DNA from: Ferruginibacter sp. HRS2-29
GTDB taxonomy: Bacteria > Bacteroidota > Bacteroidia > Chitinophagales > Chitinophagaceae
Direction: 5' to 3'
DNA length: 64,000 nt
NCBI RefSeq assembly: GCF_024343615.1
Contig: NZ_RJUB01000124.1
Coordinates: 1 to 64,000 of the forward strand
Each line of letters opens with the position of its first letter. Positions within the stretch are counted from its first letter, which is position 1. The notes beneath the pieces are model-generated. The model did no database searches, was not told the DNA's origin, and saw only the letters and a program-made list of their open reading frames with translations. The position numbers and the translations under genes were made by a program. This document shows positions 7,822 to 37,684 of this stretch, one piece after another.

Positions 7822-7900
7822 CTGTCAGGCTGAGCTTGTCGAAGCCGGTCCGAATTAATCTTCTATTTGGAATAGCCTTCGACAAGCTCAGGCTGACAGT
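7822..7900. repeat. REP-like palindrome, copy 1
   Basis: CTGTCAGGCTGAGCTTGTCG at 7822 pairs with its complement ending at 7900 (GCCTTCGACAAGCTCAGGCT). The CTTCGACAAGCTCAG word is known as a dispersed repeat in many bacterial genomes. Copies 1 and 2 bracket the DUF3127 gene. Confidence 0.85.
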
Positions 7901-7922: not shown

Positions 7923-8312
7923 TTAAAACGGCAGATCATCCAGCTCTTCCGGATTGGTGGCCGTGAAGTTATCGATCGGTTCCATCTGGTCGTTGGCAGC
8001 GCCGGCAGTTCCTGCGTTTGGCAGGATCTGTTCTATGCGCCATGCATCGAGGTTGGTGATGTAATTGGTTTTGCCATCCTTTTCCCACTTGCTTCCTTTG
8101 ATGTTGAAATATACTTTGATATCGTCGCCGATGTTTACGCGGTCGATGATAGCAGTCTTATCCTGTACACATTGAAATTTTGCATAATTAACAATCGTCC
8201 TTCCGTTGATGTCGTCTGTTTTTTCTACGGCAAATTCCCTGGTCTGAAAAGTTGCTGTTCTTTGCACGGTATCATATTTGGCTACCAGTTTGCCTGTAAG
8301 TTCGTAACTCAT
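7923..8312 (-). CDS. DUF3127 domain protein
   Basis: The 129-aa protein begins MSYELTGKLVAKYDTVQRTA and continues with REFAVEKTDDINGRTIVNYA, which is the pattern of the DUF3127 family common in Bacteroidota. The family has an OB-fold-like, single-strand-binding-protein-like appearance, and its C-terminal acidic tail (EPIDNFTATNPEELDDLPF) closely resembles the SSB tail that docks replication and repair partners. A nucleic-acid-binding role is therefore plausible but unproven. The gene is alone, bracketed by two REP-like palindromes 22 bp after its stop and 120 bp before its start, with dnaA on the other side. Confidence 0.85.
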   Translation of the reverse strand: MSYELTGKLVAKYDTVQRTATFQTREFAVEKTDDINGRTIVNYAKFQCVQDKTAIIDRVNIGDDIKVYFNIKGSKWEKDGKTNYITNLDAWRIEQILPNAGTAGAANDQMEPIDNFTATNPEELDDLPF

Positions 8313-8431: not shown

Positions 8432-8500
8432 CTGTCAGCCTGAGCTTGTCGACGGCGGAATAAAAAAGGACTGCGCCTTCGACAAGCTCAGGCTGACAGC
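8432..8500. repeat. REP-like palindrome, copy 2
   Basis: ACTGTCAGCCTGAGCTTGTC and its complement near 8475-8499 enclose a short spacer. It is the same family as the copies at 7822, 46534 and 60562. Confidence 0.85.
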
Positions 8501-33476: not shown

Positions 33477-33546
33477 TTTCACTCTGGAGAACTCTGCGTA
33501 AACTCCGTTTTCTCTGTTCTCTGCGGTAAAAAATCAAATTTTACAA

Positions 33547-34413
33547 ATGCCAAGATTAGTAAAGTCAGGACTCATTCAGATGTCGCTTCCCAAAACGGAA
33601 GGCGAAGGAACGATCGCGGAGATCATGCAGGCGATGGAAGAAAAACACATTCCGTTGATTGAAGAGGCGGGCAGACAAGGTGTGCAGATATTGTGTTTCC
33701 AGGAAATATTCAACACGCCGTATTTCTGTCCCGGGCAGGATGCGGCCTGGTACGCTTCCGCAGAAACTGTTCCCGGGCCAACCACTGACCGTATGGCTGC
33801 TTACGCAAAAAAATACAACATGGTTATCATCGTTCCTGTTTATGAAAAAGAACAGGCCGGGGTGTTGTACAATACAGCAGCAGTGATAGATGCCGATGGC
33901 ACTTATCTCGGCAAGTACCGGAAGAATCATATTCCGCATACGGGCGGCTTCTGGGAAAAATTCTTTTTCAAACCCGGAAACCTTGGTTATCCGGTATTTG
34001 AAACGAAGTATGCCAAAGTGGGAGTATACATCTGTTACGACCGCCACTTCCCCGACGGGGCAAGATGCCTCGGGCTGAATGGCGCGGAAATAGTTTACAA
34101 TCCTTCGGCGACAACTGTTGGCCAGTCGCAGTATTTATGGAAACTCGAACAGCCTGCACATGCCGTTGCTAACGGTTATTTTATGGGATGTATCAATCGT
34201 GTAGGTACAGAAGCGCCATGGAACCTCGGCAGGTTTTATGGCACTTCTTATTTTGTAAACCCTTTGGGGGAGATCATCGCAAGCGCATCGGAAGACAAAG
34301 ACGAATTGCTGGTGGCAGAATTTGATCTCGACGTGATTGAGCAGGTACGCAGCAAATGGCAATTCTTCCGCGATCGTCGTCCGGAAACTTATGGAAAAAT
34401 AACAGAATTATAG
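33547..34413 (+). CDS. Nitrilase-fold N-carbamoyl-beta-alanine hydrolase
   Basis: The 288-aa protein carries the E-K-C triad of the nitrilase superfamily: Glu in LCFQEIFNTPYF, Lys in GKYRKNHIP and Cys in VGVYICYDRHFPD. The sequence around them (FFKPGNLGYPVF, RRPETYGKITEL) fits beta-ureidopropionase or N-carbamoylputrescine amidase. Its place between dihydropyrimidinase and preTA supports the beta-ureidopropionase activity: N-carbamoyl-beta-alanine to beta-alanine, CO2 and ammonia. A gap of 66 bp separates it from preT. Confidence 0.92.
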   Translation: MPRLVKSGLIQMSLPKTEGEGTIAEIMQAMEEKHIPLIEEAGRQGVQILCFQEIFNTPYFCPGQDAAWYASAETVPGPTTDRMAAYAKKYNMVIIVPVYEKEQAGVLYNTAAVIDADGTYLGKYRKNHIPHTGGFWEKFFFKPGNLGYPVFETKYAKVGVYICYDRHFPDGARCLGLNGAEIVYNPSATTVGQSQYLWKLEQPAHAVANGYFMGCINRVGTEAPWNLGRFYGTSYFVNPLGEIIASASEDKDELLVAEFDLDVIEQVRSKWQFFRDRRPETYGKITEL

Positions 34414-34479
34414 TTTAGAGCTTAGCGTTTAGGAGTACTTAAATGCTAAACTCTAATCTCTGATCCCTAAACTTTTTAT

Positions 34480-35832
34480 ATGATTAAAGCAAACAGACTT
34501 TCACCTGAACAATACCAGGAGAATTTCTCTGATATTCATCCGCCTTTCGAAACGAAGGATGCAGCTATTGTGGAAGCCAACCGTTGTCTTTTTTGCTATG
34601 ATGCTCCTTGTATCAAAGCATGTCCGACCAGCATCAACGTGCCAAAATTCATCAAGCAGATCGTGACCGATAATGTAAAAGGAAGTGCGCATACCATTTT
34701 TCTATCCAACATAATGGGGGCGGGGTGCAGTAAAGTTTGCCCGGTAGAAAAATTATGCGAAGGCAGTTGCGTTTACAACCTGATGGATGAGCCGCCGATA
34801 CCGATCGCGAAACTTCAGCGATACAGTACGGAGATCGCTATGAAGAACAAATGGCAACTGTTTCAACGTAAAGAAACCACAGGCAAAAAAGTAGCGGTGA
34901 TAGGTGCCGGGCCGGCAGGATTGAGTTGTGCGCACATGCTTAGCCGTGAGGGGGTGGATGTAACGGTCTTTGAAAAAGAAAAACTCGGTGGCGGACTGAT
35001 GACTTACGGAATTGCCGCATACAAAGTGACGCCACAGTTTTGCGAAGATGAAGTGGATTATATCACCTCCATCGGCGGAATTTCCATAAAATACGAACAG
35101 GAACTGGGAAGGAATATTACCCTGCAGGAATTGCGGGAAAAATTTGATGCCGTTTTTTTAGGGTTCGGAGTAGGCCTTGCACGGCAATTGGAAATTCCGG
35201 GGGAGGAATTTGAAGGAGTAGAAGATGCGATCAGTTTTATTTATAATATCCGCAACAAGGGTTTTGAAAATGTTGCCGTAGGCGATAAAGTTGCGGTGAT
35301 CGGAATGGGCATGACGGCCATTGATGCCGCTACGCAGGCCAAACGCCTTGGAGCAAAGGAAGTAACGATGCTCTACCGGCGTACGCAGGAAGAAATGCCC
35401 TGTACCCAGGCCGAACTGGATATTGCAAAACTCGATGGCTGCAATGTGATCTGGCTGACTGCGCCAAAAGAAATACTCGGTACGGAGGGCAAAGTGACTT
35501 CACTCATCGCGGAAGTGATGGAATTAGGGGAGCCCGATGCAAGTGGCCGCCGTTCGCCGGTTCCCACCGACAAACAATTTATCCTGGAAGTGGATATGGT
35601 GATAAAAGCCGCAGGGCAAATGCCGTACGAATACGTGGTGATGAAACATCAGCTGGAAAATAAAAATGGAAAGATCAGCGTAAACAATGCTGCTACAAAC
35701 TTAGAGGGCGTTTTCGCCGGCGGCGATTGTGTGAACGGCGGCAAAGAAGTAGTGGATGCAGTGCAGGCAGGAAAGGATGGAGCAACAAGCATTCTCGAAT
35801 ACATTGCCACGAATGCACGAATGAAAAGTTGA
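34480..35832 (+). CDS. preT: NAD-dependent dihydropyrimidine dehydrogenase, PreT subunit
   Basis: The 450-aa flavoprotein starts with Fe-S-type Cys clusters (CLFCYDAPCIKACPTSINVP, then GAGCSKVCPVEKLCEGSC). An FAD-binding VAVIGAGPAGLSCAHML follows at about residue 132, and a second Rossmann motif VAVIGMGMTAIDAATQA near 270 for NAD(P)H. A final C-terminal FAD segment is EGVFAGGDCVNGGKEVVDAV. It passes electrons to PreA for reduction of uracil or thymine. The last eight residues (ATNARMKS) come from a dispersed repeat: the 19-bp arm at 35804-35822. Confidence 0.95.
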   Translation: MIKANRLSPEQYQENFSDIHPPFETKDAAIVEANRCLFCYDAPCIKACPTSINVPKFIKQIVTDNVKGSAHTIFLSNIMGAGCSKVCPVEKLCEGSCVYNLMDEPPIPIAKLQRYSTEIAMKNKWQLFQRKETTGKKVAVIGAGPAGLSCAHMLSREGVDVTVFEKEKLGGGLMTYGIAAYKVTPQFCEDEVDYITSIGGISIKYEQELGRNITLQELREKFDAVFLGFGVGLARQLEIPGEEFEGVEDAISFIYNIRNKGFENVAVGDKVAVIGMGMTAIDAATQAKRLGAKEVTMLYRRTQEEMPCTQAELDIAKLDGCNVIWLTAPKEILGTEGKVTSLIAEVMELGEPDASGRRSPVPTDKQFILEVDMVIKAAGQMPYEYVVMKHQLENKNGKISVNNAATNLEGVFAGGDCVNGGKEVVDAVQAGKDGATSILEYIATNARMKS

Positions 35833-36338
35833 ATCTAATGACGGATATTTTATATAAGGATGAATATTATCAGATTGTTGGATTGTGCATGAGAATACAT
35901 AATGAGTTGGGGCATGGATTTTCTGAGATAGTTTATAAAGATGCTTTAACGATTGAACTTCTTTCGAATAAGATATTTTTTGAAAGAGAAAAAGAATACC
36001 TGGTGCATTATTTCGGTGTTCCATTAGAGCATACTTTTTATGCCGATTTTGTTGTAATGGAAAAAATAATATTGGAGATAAAATGCGTAAAAGGATTAAC
36101 GGACGAACATATATCGCAGGCGATAAATTATTTGAAAGTCTCAGATTTAAAACTTGCCATATTGATAAATTTCGGCAGAGATAAGTTAGAATGCAAGAGA
36201 ATACTATACTAGGCGTAAACATATTTCCAGGAATGCACGAATAAATACCAGGAAAAAATAATTATCATAATAATATATACTTAAATAAATAGTCACTCAT
36301 AACGAATTTATAAAATATTATTCGTGCATTCGTGGCAA
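35804..36338. mobile_element. Candidate GxxExxY insertion bounded by 19-bp inverted repeats
   Basis: TTGCCACGAATGCACGAAT at 35804-35822 and its exact complement at 36320-36338 enclose 497 bp containing only the GxxExxY gene. A shorter copy of the core (GAATGCACGAAT, 36231-36242) lies just after that gene. The element separates preT from preA, which are normally adjacent. No transposase is present, so if mobile it depends on other factors. Mobility is inference from the repeats and the interrupted operon. Confidence 0.4.
35838..36212 (+). CDS. GxxExxY protein (PD-(D/E)XK-like)
   Basis: The start ATG at 35838 gives a 124-aa protein (MTDILYKDEYYQIVGLCMRI). It contains the family motif GFSEIVY (GxxExxY) at residues 26-32 and ends with KLAILINFGRDKLECKRILY. 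Known members (TIGR04256, PF13366) belong to the PD-(D/E)XK nuclease-like fold. The needed acidic pair is present here as FYADFVV and LEIKCVKG. The gene lies between preT and preA inside a 19-bp inverted repeat. It starts 5 bp after the preT stop, so it may be cotranscribed. Its role is unknown; it is unrelated to pyrimidine degradation. Confidence 0.9.
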   Translation: MTDILYKDEYYQIVGLCMRIHNELGHGFSEIVYKDALTIELLSNKIFFEREKEYLVHYFGVPLEHTFYADFVVMEKIILEIKCVKGLTDEHISQAINYLKVSDLKLAILINFGRDKLECKRILY

Positions 36339-36350
36339 AAAAATAGCAAC

Positions 36351-37619
36351 ATGGCAGACATATCTTCAGATTTTCTCGGCATCAAATCTCCCAATCCATT
36401 TTGGCTGGCGAGTGCACCGCCGACGGATAAAAAAATCAATGTGCTCCGTGCATTCGAAGCAGGGTGGGGCGGAGTAGTATGGAAAACATTGGGCTCGCAG
36501 GTGAAAAATGTTTCATCGAGGTATTCGGCGGTAAATTATGGCGGACAAAAAGTGATGGGCTTCAACAACATCGAGCTCATCAGCGACAGGCCCCTGCACA
36601 TCAACCTGCGGGAGATTGAAGAATGTATAAAATTATTCCCCGACAGGGCGATGGTGATTTCCCTCATGGCCGATAACGACCGCGATAGCTGGCATGAGTT
36701 GATCAGGAAAGTGGAAGATACCGGTGCTCATGGAGTTGAATTGAATTTCGGTTGTCCCCACGGAATGACGGAACGTGGCATGGGAGCGGCTGTAGGGCAG
36801 GATCCGGAGATAGCGAAAATGGTAGTGGAGTGGGTGATGGAAAAAGCGACGATCCCTGTCATAACCAAACTGACGCCCAATGTTCACTCTGTGGTGCCAA
36901 CCGGTAAAGCAGTAGTGCAAGCAGGAACGAATGGCCTGTCGTTGATCAATACCATACAATCTGTTACCGGCGTGGATCTTGATACATTGGTGCCGAATCC
37001 TTATGTGGCCGGCAAAAGTGTTTTTGGGGGGTATTGTGGCCCGGCTGTAAAACCGATCGCGTTGAAATTCCTGACCACCATTGCACAAAATGAAGTGACG
37101 AATAAAGTGCCGATATCTGGCATCGGTGGCGTAAGCACCTGGAAAGATGCCGTGGAGTTCATGCTGCTGGGCGCTTCCAATGTACAGGTATGCACGGCGG
37201 CCATGAAACATGGTTTCCGCATCGTGGAAGATATGTGTGAAGGGATGATCAACTGGATGGATGATCGCGGATTTAAAAAGCTGGATGATTTTATCGGGAA
37301 GTCGGTAAACAATATCACCCATTGGGAAGACCTGGATATCAATTATCACCACATCGCTCATATCAACCAGGATAAATGTGTGCACTGCGGACTATGTTAT
37401 ATCGCCTGTGAAGACACGTCACACCAATCGATCAACCTCGAATATGGCAAGCCATATAATACTTATACCATCAAGGAAGAAGAATGTGTGGGTTGCAATC
37501 TTTGCCAGCTGATGTGCCCTGTTACGGATTGTATCACAATGGAAGAACATCGCGTAGCGCCCGAATACCTCAACTGGAAACAGTTCCAGGAGAAAGGGTT
37601 GCCATTGAATGATCATTAA
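36351..37619 (+). CDS. preA: NAD-dependent dihydropyrimidine dehydrogenase, PreA subunit
   Basis: The start at 36351 (MADISSDFLGIKSPNPFWLA) matches the family; a longer in-frame start lies in the repeat. The 422-aa product has the FMN-binding dihydroorotate-dehydrogenase-like barrel (LNFGCPHGMTERGMGAAVGQ; GIGGVSTWKDAVEFMLLGAS). A C-terminal ferredoxin domain has two 4Fe-4S motifs: CVHCGLCYIAC and CVGCNLCQLMC. It reduces uracil or thymine to the 5,6-dihydro form using electrons from PreT. The start codon lies 13 bp after the right arm of the inverted repeat. Confidence 0.95.
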   Translation: MADISSDFLGIKSPNPFWLASAPPTDKKINVLRAFEAGWGGVVWKTLGSQVKNVSSRYSAVNYGGQKVMGFNNIELISDRPLHINLREIEECIKLFPDRAMVISLMADNDRDSWHELIRKVEDTGAHGVELNFGCPHGMTERGMGAAVGQDPEIAKMVVEWVMEKATIPVITKLTPNVHSVVPTGKAVVQAGTNGLSLINTIQSVTGVDLDTLVPNPYVAGKSVFGGYCGPAVKPIALKFLTTIAQNEVTNKVPISGIGGVSTWKDAVEFMLLGASNVQVCTAAMKHGFRIVEDMCEGMINWMDDRGFKKLDDFIGKSVNNITHWEDLDINYHHIAHINQDKCVHCGLCYIACEDTSHQSINLEYGKPYNTYTIKEEECVGCNLCQLMCPVTDCITMEEHRVAPEYLNWKQFQEKGLPLNDH

Positions 37620-37684
37620 ATAATGGATAATGGATAATTGACAATAGTTCCTTTGGATAGAAAATACTATTGGTTATTGTACAA

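Follow-up and report, generated by a model that had tools for sequence, protein, structure and literature searches.

A small, probably mobile RAYT/REP-like element built around a GxxExxY nuclease gene in Ferruginibacter

Introduction

The closest described counterpart of the locus reported here is the RAYT/REP system of REPtrons and REPINs. As set out in the cited passages of PMC2817692, PMC3116915 and PMC3733652, that system shares with our locus a lone small gene amid inverted repeat copies, a protein and a repeat that co-vary, a gene whose presence tracks the abundance of its cognate repeat, gene-less inverted doublets, and intergenic placement, the last of these at the sites that we read. 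S23 genes (PF05635), described in an intervening sequence of rRNA that RNase III excises (PMC4990558, in the part drawn on here), are likewise tiny lone genes amid inverted tandem-word arms, and they occupy the same junction as our element in 5 of 26 relatives. MITEs resemble it in their short inverted ends, their gene-less copies and their intergenic position. Two nuclease systems are also relevant: homing endonucleases cut long sites in the allele without the gene, and Cas4 (SSO0001, 4ic1) works with Cas1-Cas2.

We found no role assigned to GxxExxY proteins, and, among the papers listed by searches of the open-licence PMC literature, no description of a link between them and repeats. Six repeat strings from other genomes matched a single item in that literature, a primer in a Bacteroides fragilis paper, within the portions of text available. 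Here we analyze a window of 64,000 nucleotides from Ferruginibacter sp. HRS2-29 (contig NZ_RJUB01000124.1, positions 1 to 64,000). At a probability of roughly 0.64, we propose that its GxxExxY locus is a small mobile element, RAYT/REP-like, in which an unrelated nuclease probably recognizes the element's own ends.

Results

The Element between preT and preA

A 124-aa GxxExxY/PDDEXK_3 gene (35838..36212, + strand) that matches both TIGR04256 and PF13366 lies between the upstream host gene preT (34480..35832, +) and the downstream host gene preA (36351..37619, +; NF006183, E 2.8e-195), bracketed by a perfect 19-bp inverted pair. The left arm (35804..35822, +; TTGCCACGAATGCACGAAT), built of the words CCACGAATG-CACGAAT, doubles as the last preT codons and spans residues 442 to 448, the 3′ end of preT being the target junction; the right arm (36320..36338, −) is its exact inverted copy. 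A third word copy follows the gene in direct orientation (36224..36242, +), with 2 mismatches to the 19-mer, and forms with the right arm an imperfect hairpin of 21-nt arms, 90% complementary, around a 73-nt spacer. The original prediction had described the inverted pair, the partial third copy and the arm-encoded preT codons, and was correct on all three. The name preT also comes from it; the product is a flavoprotein with a dihydropyrimidine-dehydrogenase domain II and matches no NCBIfam model at its cut-off. Similarity to preT ends at residue 437-447 for 24 of 26 same-genus relatives (of the remaining two, L094 has a run of Ns and L106 no preT alignment), so the arm-encoded tail is largely not common to relatives.

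Allowing up to 3 mismatches, the 19-mer has three matches in the 64 kb against 0.04 expected, and none of 100 shuffles reached three. Simple chance was rejected as its source on these grounds. Flanks scoring ≥32 were found for one of 51 other ORFs in the window. This sole control ORF lies amid two complete hairpins of another repeat; the CTGTCAGGCTGAGCTTGTCGAAG hairpins at 7826-7900 and 8432-8500 flank a small gene (7923-8312) and look like two lone repeats, not an element. Two lone hairpins around an ordinary gene can mimic an element, as happened once in 51 control ORFs. By eye, word-type repeats are also seen in neighboring intergenic gaps at 33500-33533 (CTCTGTTCTCTGCGG), 34413-34478 (TTTAGAG..CTAAAC) and 37620-37660 (ATAATGGATAATGG), and the preT-preA region therefore gathers several repeat families.

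Arm Pairing at Other GxxExxY Loci

Arms were detected by local alignment of the upstream flank with the reverse complement of the downstream flank, using mismatched flanks of other loci as the control. In a first set, 15 of 35 loci exceeded the 99th percentile of mismatched flanks. An enlarged set of 109 loci included these 35 (112 were given, less one without a recognized gene and two with short flanks); 71 exceeded the 95th percentile and 50 the 99th, with a median of 31 versus 19. The other 38, among them two of the nine loci of the Ferruginibacter genome (L036 and L039), did not exceed the 95th. The arms have a repeat period of 8-10 nt (z 10.3 at lag 8), as measured on 109 arms chosen for pairing. 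The idea that GxxExxY genes commonly lie between such repeats therefore holds for the architecture, with paired arms at 71/109 loci, but not for the exact word, which belongs to one subfamily.

Among the 77 loci with flanks in a named set of 80 from that subfamily, only 14 exceeded the cross-pair 95th percentile and 8 the 99th, a low count because the word shared by most of these loci inflates the cross-pair control. Nine further genomes were reached via named loci (Melioribacter and relatives, Ignavibacteria, Calditrichota, an Acidobacteria MAG and a planctomycete MAG), and there 20 of 30 loci exceeded the 95th percentile and 9 of 30 the 99th; the 30 include the nine query loci themselves, and G415 shares coordinates with G096 of the phylum set, at least L301 and L309 repeating L121 and L141. 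Breadth beyond Bacteroidota comes from named loci, several of which are MAGs.

Words in the Ferruginibacter Genome

The 5.07-Mb assembly has nine PF13366 matches. Two of them, L033 and L034, agree fully in protein and arms, lie close to the ends of two contigs and may represent a single locus. Arm pairing was found at seven of the nine, every set having a word of its own. Read by eye, the arm words are CACGAAT (window), CGGGAAGA, CACAAAG, CGCAGAG (L033/L034), ACGCTGATT and CACGGATT/CACGAATT. At L036 (CACAGAG words) and at the gene fragment L039 (CGCAGATT words), words were seen by eye on one flank and arm pairing was absent. The notion of one word for GxxExxY genes in general was dropped because the nine matches adjoin different words.

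Genome-wide, CCACGAATGCACGAAT at ≤3 mismatches has 75 matches (41 forward, 34 reverse), and its reversed control has 8 and 13. The 19-mer is thus not private to the window's GxxExxY gene. Several gene-less copies of the word are inverted pairs about 43 nt apart, and in places the word forms tandem arrays. The original prediction had named as a warning sign a repeat found at many unrelated sites with no empty sites: gene-less copies are indeed many, but empty sites exist, as described below. Across 1.26 of the 5.07 Mb, all eight words tested had 2-25 copies each at ≤2 mismatches, with 0-1 for reversed controls; this sample leaves out six of the eight source loci, and for the words of the window and of L039 the copies counted include those in their own arms. 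Words from foreign loci (54 seeds, including words from loci with the window's own word) had a median of 0.5 and a mean of 4.8 copies in the same sample. The difference between own and foreign words (Mann-Whitney p 0.004) was obtained with a contaminated control: a filter against foreign words resembling the own ones let 51 of 54 pass, register-shifted copies of the window's word among these.

S23 and Y1 Loci with Similar Anatomy

All eight S23 genes of the Ferruginibacter genome (L068-L075) have paired arms, and by eye each of the eight has a different tandem word. S23 or four-helix-bundle genes amid inverted tandem-word arms were also seen at L082, L083, L088, L090, L094 and L329-L358. In the phylum sample, where a two-sequence S23 profile recognized 15 of 30 fetched PF05635 loci, 10 of the 15 exceeded the 95th percentile of arm pairing, and six S23 arms showed a strict 7-nt period (lags 7, 14 and 21). 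Because this anatomy recurs around the genes of another protein family, S23, anatomy alone is no proof of nuclease-driven spread.

Three Y1_Tnp matches were found in the Ferruginibacter genome, all on contigs other than the window's. A RAYT-like Y1_Tnp gene comes with another repeat of its own (CGTTCCTACGGAACG, downstream flank of L077), which brings the protein families tied to repeats in this genome to at least three. RAYT as mobilizer of the GxxExxY arms was rejected because the three Y1 loci, read by eye, have other words.

Filled and Empty Sites

The preT-preA junction was read by eye in 27 same-genus genomes including our own (27 of 30 fetched loci; one fragment and two distant paralogues were left out). 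Nine junctions are empty, six hold a GxxExxY gene, five an S23 gene recognized by sequence, six a bare hairpin (the call for L092 is doubtful) and one something else. At L103, by eye, a nucleotidyltransferase-like gene accompanied by another small ORF takes the place of a word element. Two of the six GxxExxY-filled junctions have CACGAAT words and four have CGCAAAG. The empty site that the original prediction proposed to look for is therefore present in 9 of the 26 relatives, and with the paired arms at many other GxxExxY loci it bears out the view of gene and repeats as a unit, one that is mobile on an evolutionary scale.

On a preA tree, the junction states take at least 14 changes versus 15.5 for shuffled labels (37 of 200 shuffles as low), and the GxxExxY label 5 versus 5.5. 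S23 is the only label that clusters (3 changes; 5 of 500 shuffles as low). The tree is weakly resolved, with 9 of 24 branches well supported, and because the GxxExxY label is near-random on it, single insertions are not datable. No target-site duplication was definable at the preT-preA or Flavobacterium-like sites, where even the most closely related empty and filled genomes have diverged too far.

A second site lies at the start of a gene that we take, from its sequence and not from a profile library, to be CCA-tRNA-nucleotidyltransferase-like, in a genus that we take to be Flavobacterium. Among the best 30 loci of 148 positive genomes, eight hold a GxxExxY gene, which is broken in one case, and the right-arm TTCGTGGC persists at 21 of the 22 gene-less loci, several with ATTAGTGAATTCGTGGC. 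In all six intact CACGAATT-type loci, the GTG of the arm is the first in-frame start codon of the host gene. L295 keeps what appear to be the last bases of a GxxExxY gene, so loss is likely there; in general, gain and loss at this site are indistinguishable from the sequences compared. L268 and L270 share 93-100% identity across the element and roughly 750 nt on its upstream side, versus 81-92% over the next 1.5 kb, which suggests recent transfer of the element with flanking sequence. Another stretch of this pair is also 95-99% identical; L272 has a similar but weaker block, none is evident in L285/L287, and the block is absent in some of the six pairs compared. By eye, nested hairpins occur in L277, L278, L284 and others of L269-L290, where the loop of a CACGAATT hairpin encloses one of CACAGATT, and their number differs among related genomes.

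Arm Words Track the Protein Subfamily

The window's 17-mer (≤4 mismatches) occurs on both flanks of 55 of 77 subfamily loci versus 3 of 109 loci in the mixed set, to which the window's locus itself and some members of the subfamily belong; no locus had a shuffled or reversed motif on both flanks. Protein and arm similarity were correlated over 174 of 191 loci, 17 having been dropped as near-duplicate, short or N-bearing (Mantel rho 0.397; best of 500 permutations 0.053; reversed-arm control 0.011). The p-values are not literal because pairs are not independent, and since a gene moves along with its arms, some of the correlation reflects linkage alone. Among the 148 of 174 loci with an assigned taxonomic family, arms were in common (score ≥32) in 23% of 1553 pairs from different families with protein identity ≥50%, and in 0.2% of 2810 such pairs with identity <40%; within a genus, pairs with identity <40% had arms in common in 3.7% of 323 cases.

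Within the subfamily, fourfold sites have reached saturation (0.30 identical versus 0.27 at random, 1813 pairs), and the arms in the same comparison are 0.88 alike, an upper view given that arms were preselected within 4 mismatches. Saturated sites beside arms that are still alike suggest selection on arm sequence by an agent that varies with the subfamily, and the GxxExxY protein would most simply be that agent. Other subfamilies have other ends by eye (GNGFQEVIYQRAL with TTGTCTGAA in L045 and L067, a variant in L065), and of seven further subfamily loci read, those without the exact window word keep the same arm build with a variant word. In L266 and L267, the same site in two genomes of one genus with related GxxExxY genes, both arms differ jointly (CACGAATT versus CGCAGATT).

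It could be that an unlinked enzyme, whether a RAYT or some other transposase, mobilizes the arms as a hairpin family, the GxxExxY gene being cargo that chanced to lie between two copies. Off-gene word copies outnumber gene-bearing ones, the genome has its three Y1_Tnp matches, and S23 genes share the anatomy, all of which such a model would accommodate. However, a single unlinked mobilizer does not predict a word that varies with the GxxExxY subfamily yet agrees across taxonomic families, nor that dissimilar GxxExxY proteins within one genus should have dissimilar arms. The other words at the three Y1 loci, read by eye, and the rarity of such flanks around other window ORFs (just 1 of 51) also count against it, and we consider this model unlikely. 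The original prediction saw a non-autonomous element; the subfamily-specific arms point instead, at the sequence level, to the protein as the element's own factor.

Distribution and Repeat Abundance

GxxExxY matches were found in 60 of 118 sampled Bacteroidota genomes, with up to 12 in each. Abundance was compared in 198 genomes of the phylum, 17 with the subfamily protein and 11 with at least four word copies. The protein is present in 6 of these 11 versus 11 of the 187 others (Fisher p 6e-5; thresholds of 138 bits and 4 copies were set after the tables had been seen). All three of the richest genomes (46, 54 and 67 word copies) have it, and in the richest, G090, the arms of the subfamily gene itself hold a related but different word (GCCACAGATT). 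The protein is absent from 5 of the 11 repeat-rich genomes, including G086 with 11 copies, and 11 of the 17 genomes with the protein have fewer than four copies of the exact window word.

With the window protein as the sole query, there were no matches among 50,697 phage records and 8 among 72,556 plasmid records, and a reading of GxxExxY as phage or plasmid cargo was rejected on these counts. One GxxExxY copy was noted on a Bacteroides finegoldii plasmid.

The GxxExxY Protein

The only matches of the window protein in Pfam and NCBIfam are PF13366 PDDEXK_3 (E 4.5e-34, 117.7 bits, cut-off 22) and TIGR04256 GxxExxY (E 1.4e-37, 128.6 bits, cut-off 35). With PF13366 as its sole Pfam match, it has neither a Y1 (HUH) transposase domain nor the S23 domain PF05635. 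It carries G27, E30, Y33, D70, E80 and K82, that is, the GxxExxY motif and a D...ExK pattern, as well as Q94; the subfamily motif is GHGFSEIVYKDA. The GxxExxY and D...ExK positions are near-invariant across 174 proteins, with D70 kept in 173, E80 in 172, K82 in 174 and Q94 in 166.

AlphaFold2 modeled the protein with a pLDDT of 95.5. Foldseek gave five matches at E ≤0.001, four chains of Cas4 SSO0001 (4ic1) and LHK-Exo, followed further down by lambda exonuclease, restriction enzymes and, more weakly, RNA-splicing endonucleases (ranks 15, 16 and 18; E 0.05-0.07). The model is thus similar to solved PD-(D/E)XK nuclease folds. A family-profile sequence search of the PDB found no relative (best E 0.69), and the evidence for the fold therefore comes from the model. 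The window protein models as a compact Cas4-like PD-(D/E)XK nuclease with a near-invariant D/ExK site. Self-targeting, as raised in the original prediction, agrees with this predicted fold and the intact active site.

A different possibility is that the arms act in RNA, folding the transcript into a stem processed by, for example, RNase III, like the intervening sequence of 23S rRNA that bears S23, so that insertion into an operon is harmless and the nuclease fold either acts on RNA or is incidental. The element does sit within a co-directional gene pair and its arms pair, 5 of 26 relatives have an S23 gene at this preT-preA junction, and RNA-splicing endonucleases are among the weaker fold matches. 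But the sole matches at E ≤0.001, Cas4 (4ic1) and LHK-Exo, are both DNA nucleases, and the word is conserved within the subfamily beyond what pairing alone needs. We find this explanation decidedly improbable.

Across all 15 pairs of six orthologues, dN/dS was 0.03-0.14, and the sequences of this one orthologue set indicate strong purifying selection on GxxExxY. Such selection, together with the phage and plasmid counts given above, is what would be seen if GxxExxY were a host nuclease for repair or anti-phage defense and the arms were chance regulatory hairpins or terminators. Off-gene word copies, empty sites and subfamily-specific arms would not be expected of terminators, though, and the gene reaches 12 copies in a genome yet has no match in about half of the genomes sampled. 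This coincidence therefore seems very hard to credit.

Discussion

We favor a mobile element in which the GxxExxY nuclease probably spreads the word repeats. The locus would be one copy of a widespread element consisting of a lone GxxExxY nuclease gene amid two inverted arms, each of a few tandem 8-10-nt words. We infer that the protein recognizes the cognate array of words and cuts there or next to it. An intact copy would then serve as template for repair or replication, by which the element, or its arms alone as a bare hairpin, would reach new intergenic places. Copying may proceed by double-strand-break repair, as for a homing endonuclease, or by action on a folded single strand. In either case, the nuclease would play for words the part that has been proposed for RAYT (TnpA-REP) transposases in the case of REPs.

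The tie between subfamily and word gives a concrete candidate substrate for a common protein family, and word elements offer a source for many of the intergenic hairpins in these genomes. Their arms also become host sequence, as the last preT codons here and as the GTG start codon of the CCA-tRNA-nucleotidyltransferase-like gene in another genus. A broader claim, which we hold at about even odds, is that GxxExxY proteins drive a separate, widespread class of repeat-spreading element in which word and protein co-evolve, and that many Bacteroidota intergenic hairpins are its products. If true, RAYT, S23 and GxxExxY would be at least three unrelated small proteins with one element anatomy, rivals for the same intergenic places.

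The proposed element differs from each of the known systems in a definite way. No transposase gene lies between GxxExxY arms, which sets them apart from MITEs. Unlike homing endonucleases such as I-Bth0305I (3r3p), the nuclease has as its candidate target the short word array of the very element that encodes it. S23 elements have another protein family and words of exactly 7 nt (6 arms) versus 8-10 nt (109 arms) for GxxExxY, and they are best known inside 23S rRNA.

The comparison with RAYT/REP is the closest. Like the features that mark a REPtron, inverted cognate repeats (in the window and at 71 of 109 loci), co-variation of protein and repeat, and a statistical association with repeat abundance were all found here, and within the cited passages of PMC2817692 the argument for RAYT/REP rests on the same legs as ours. 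As those sources describe the system in the parts drawn on, the RAYT enzyme is a Y1 HUH transposase whereas ours is a predicted PD-(D/E)XK nuclease, and REPs are 20-40-bp tagged palindromes whereas the arms here are arrays of 8-10-nt words. The element would thereby add a nuclease-driven counterpart to the RAYT/REP system.
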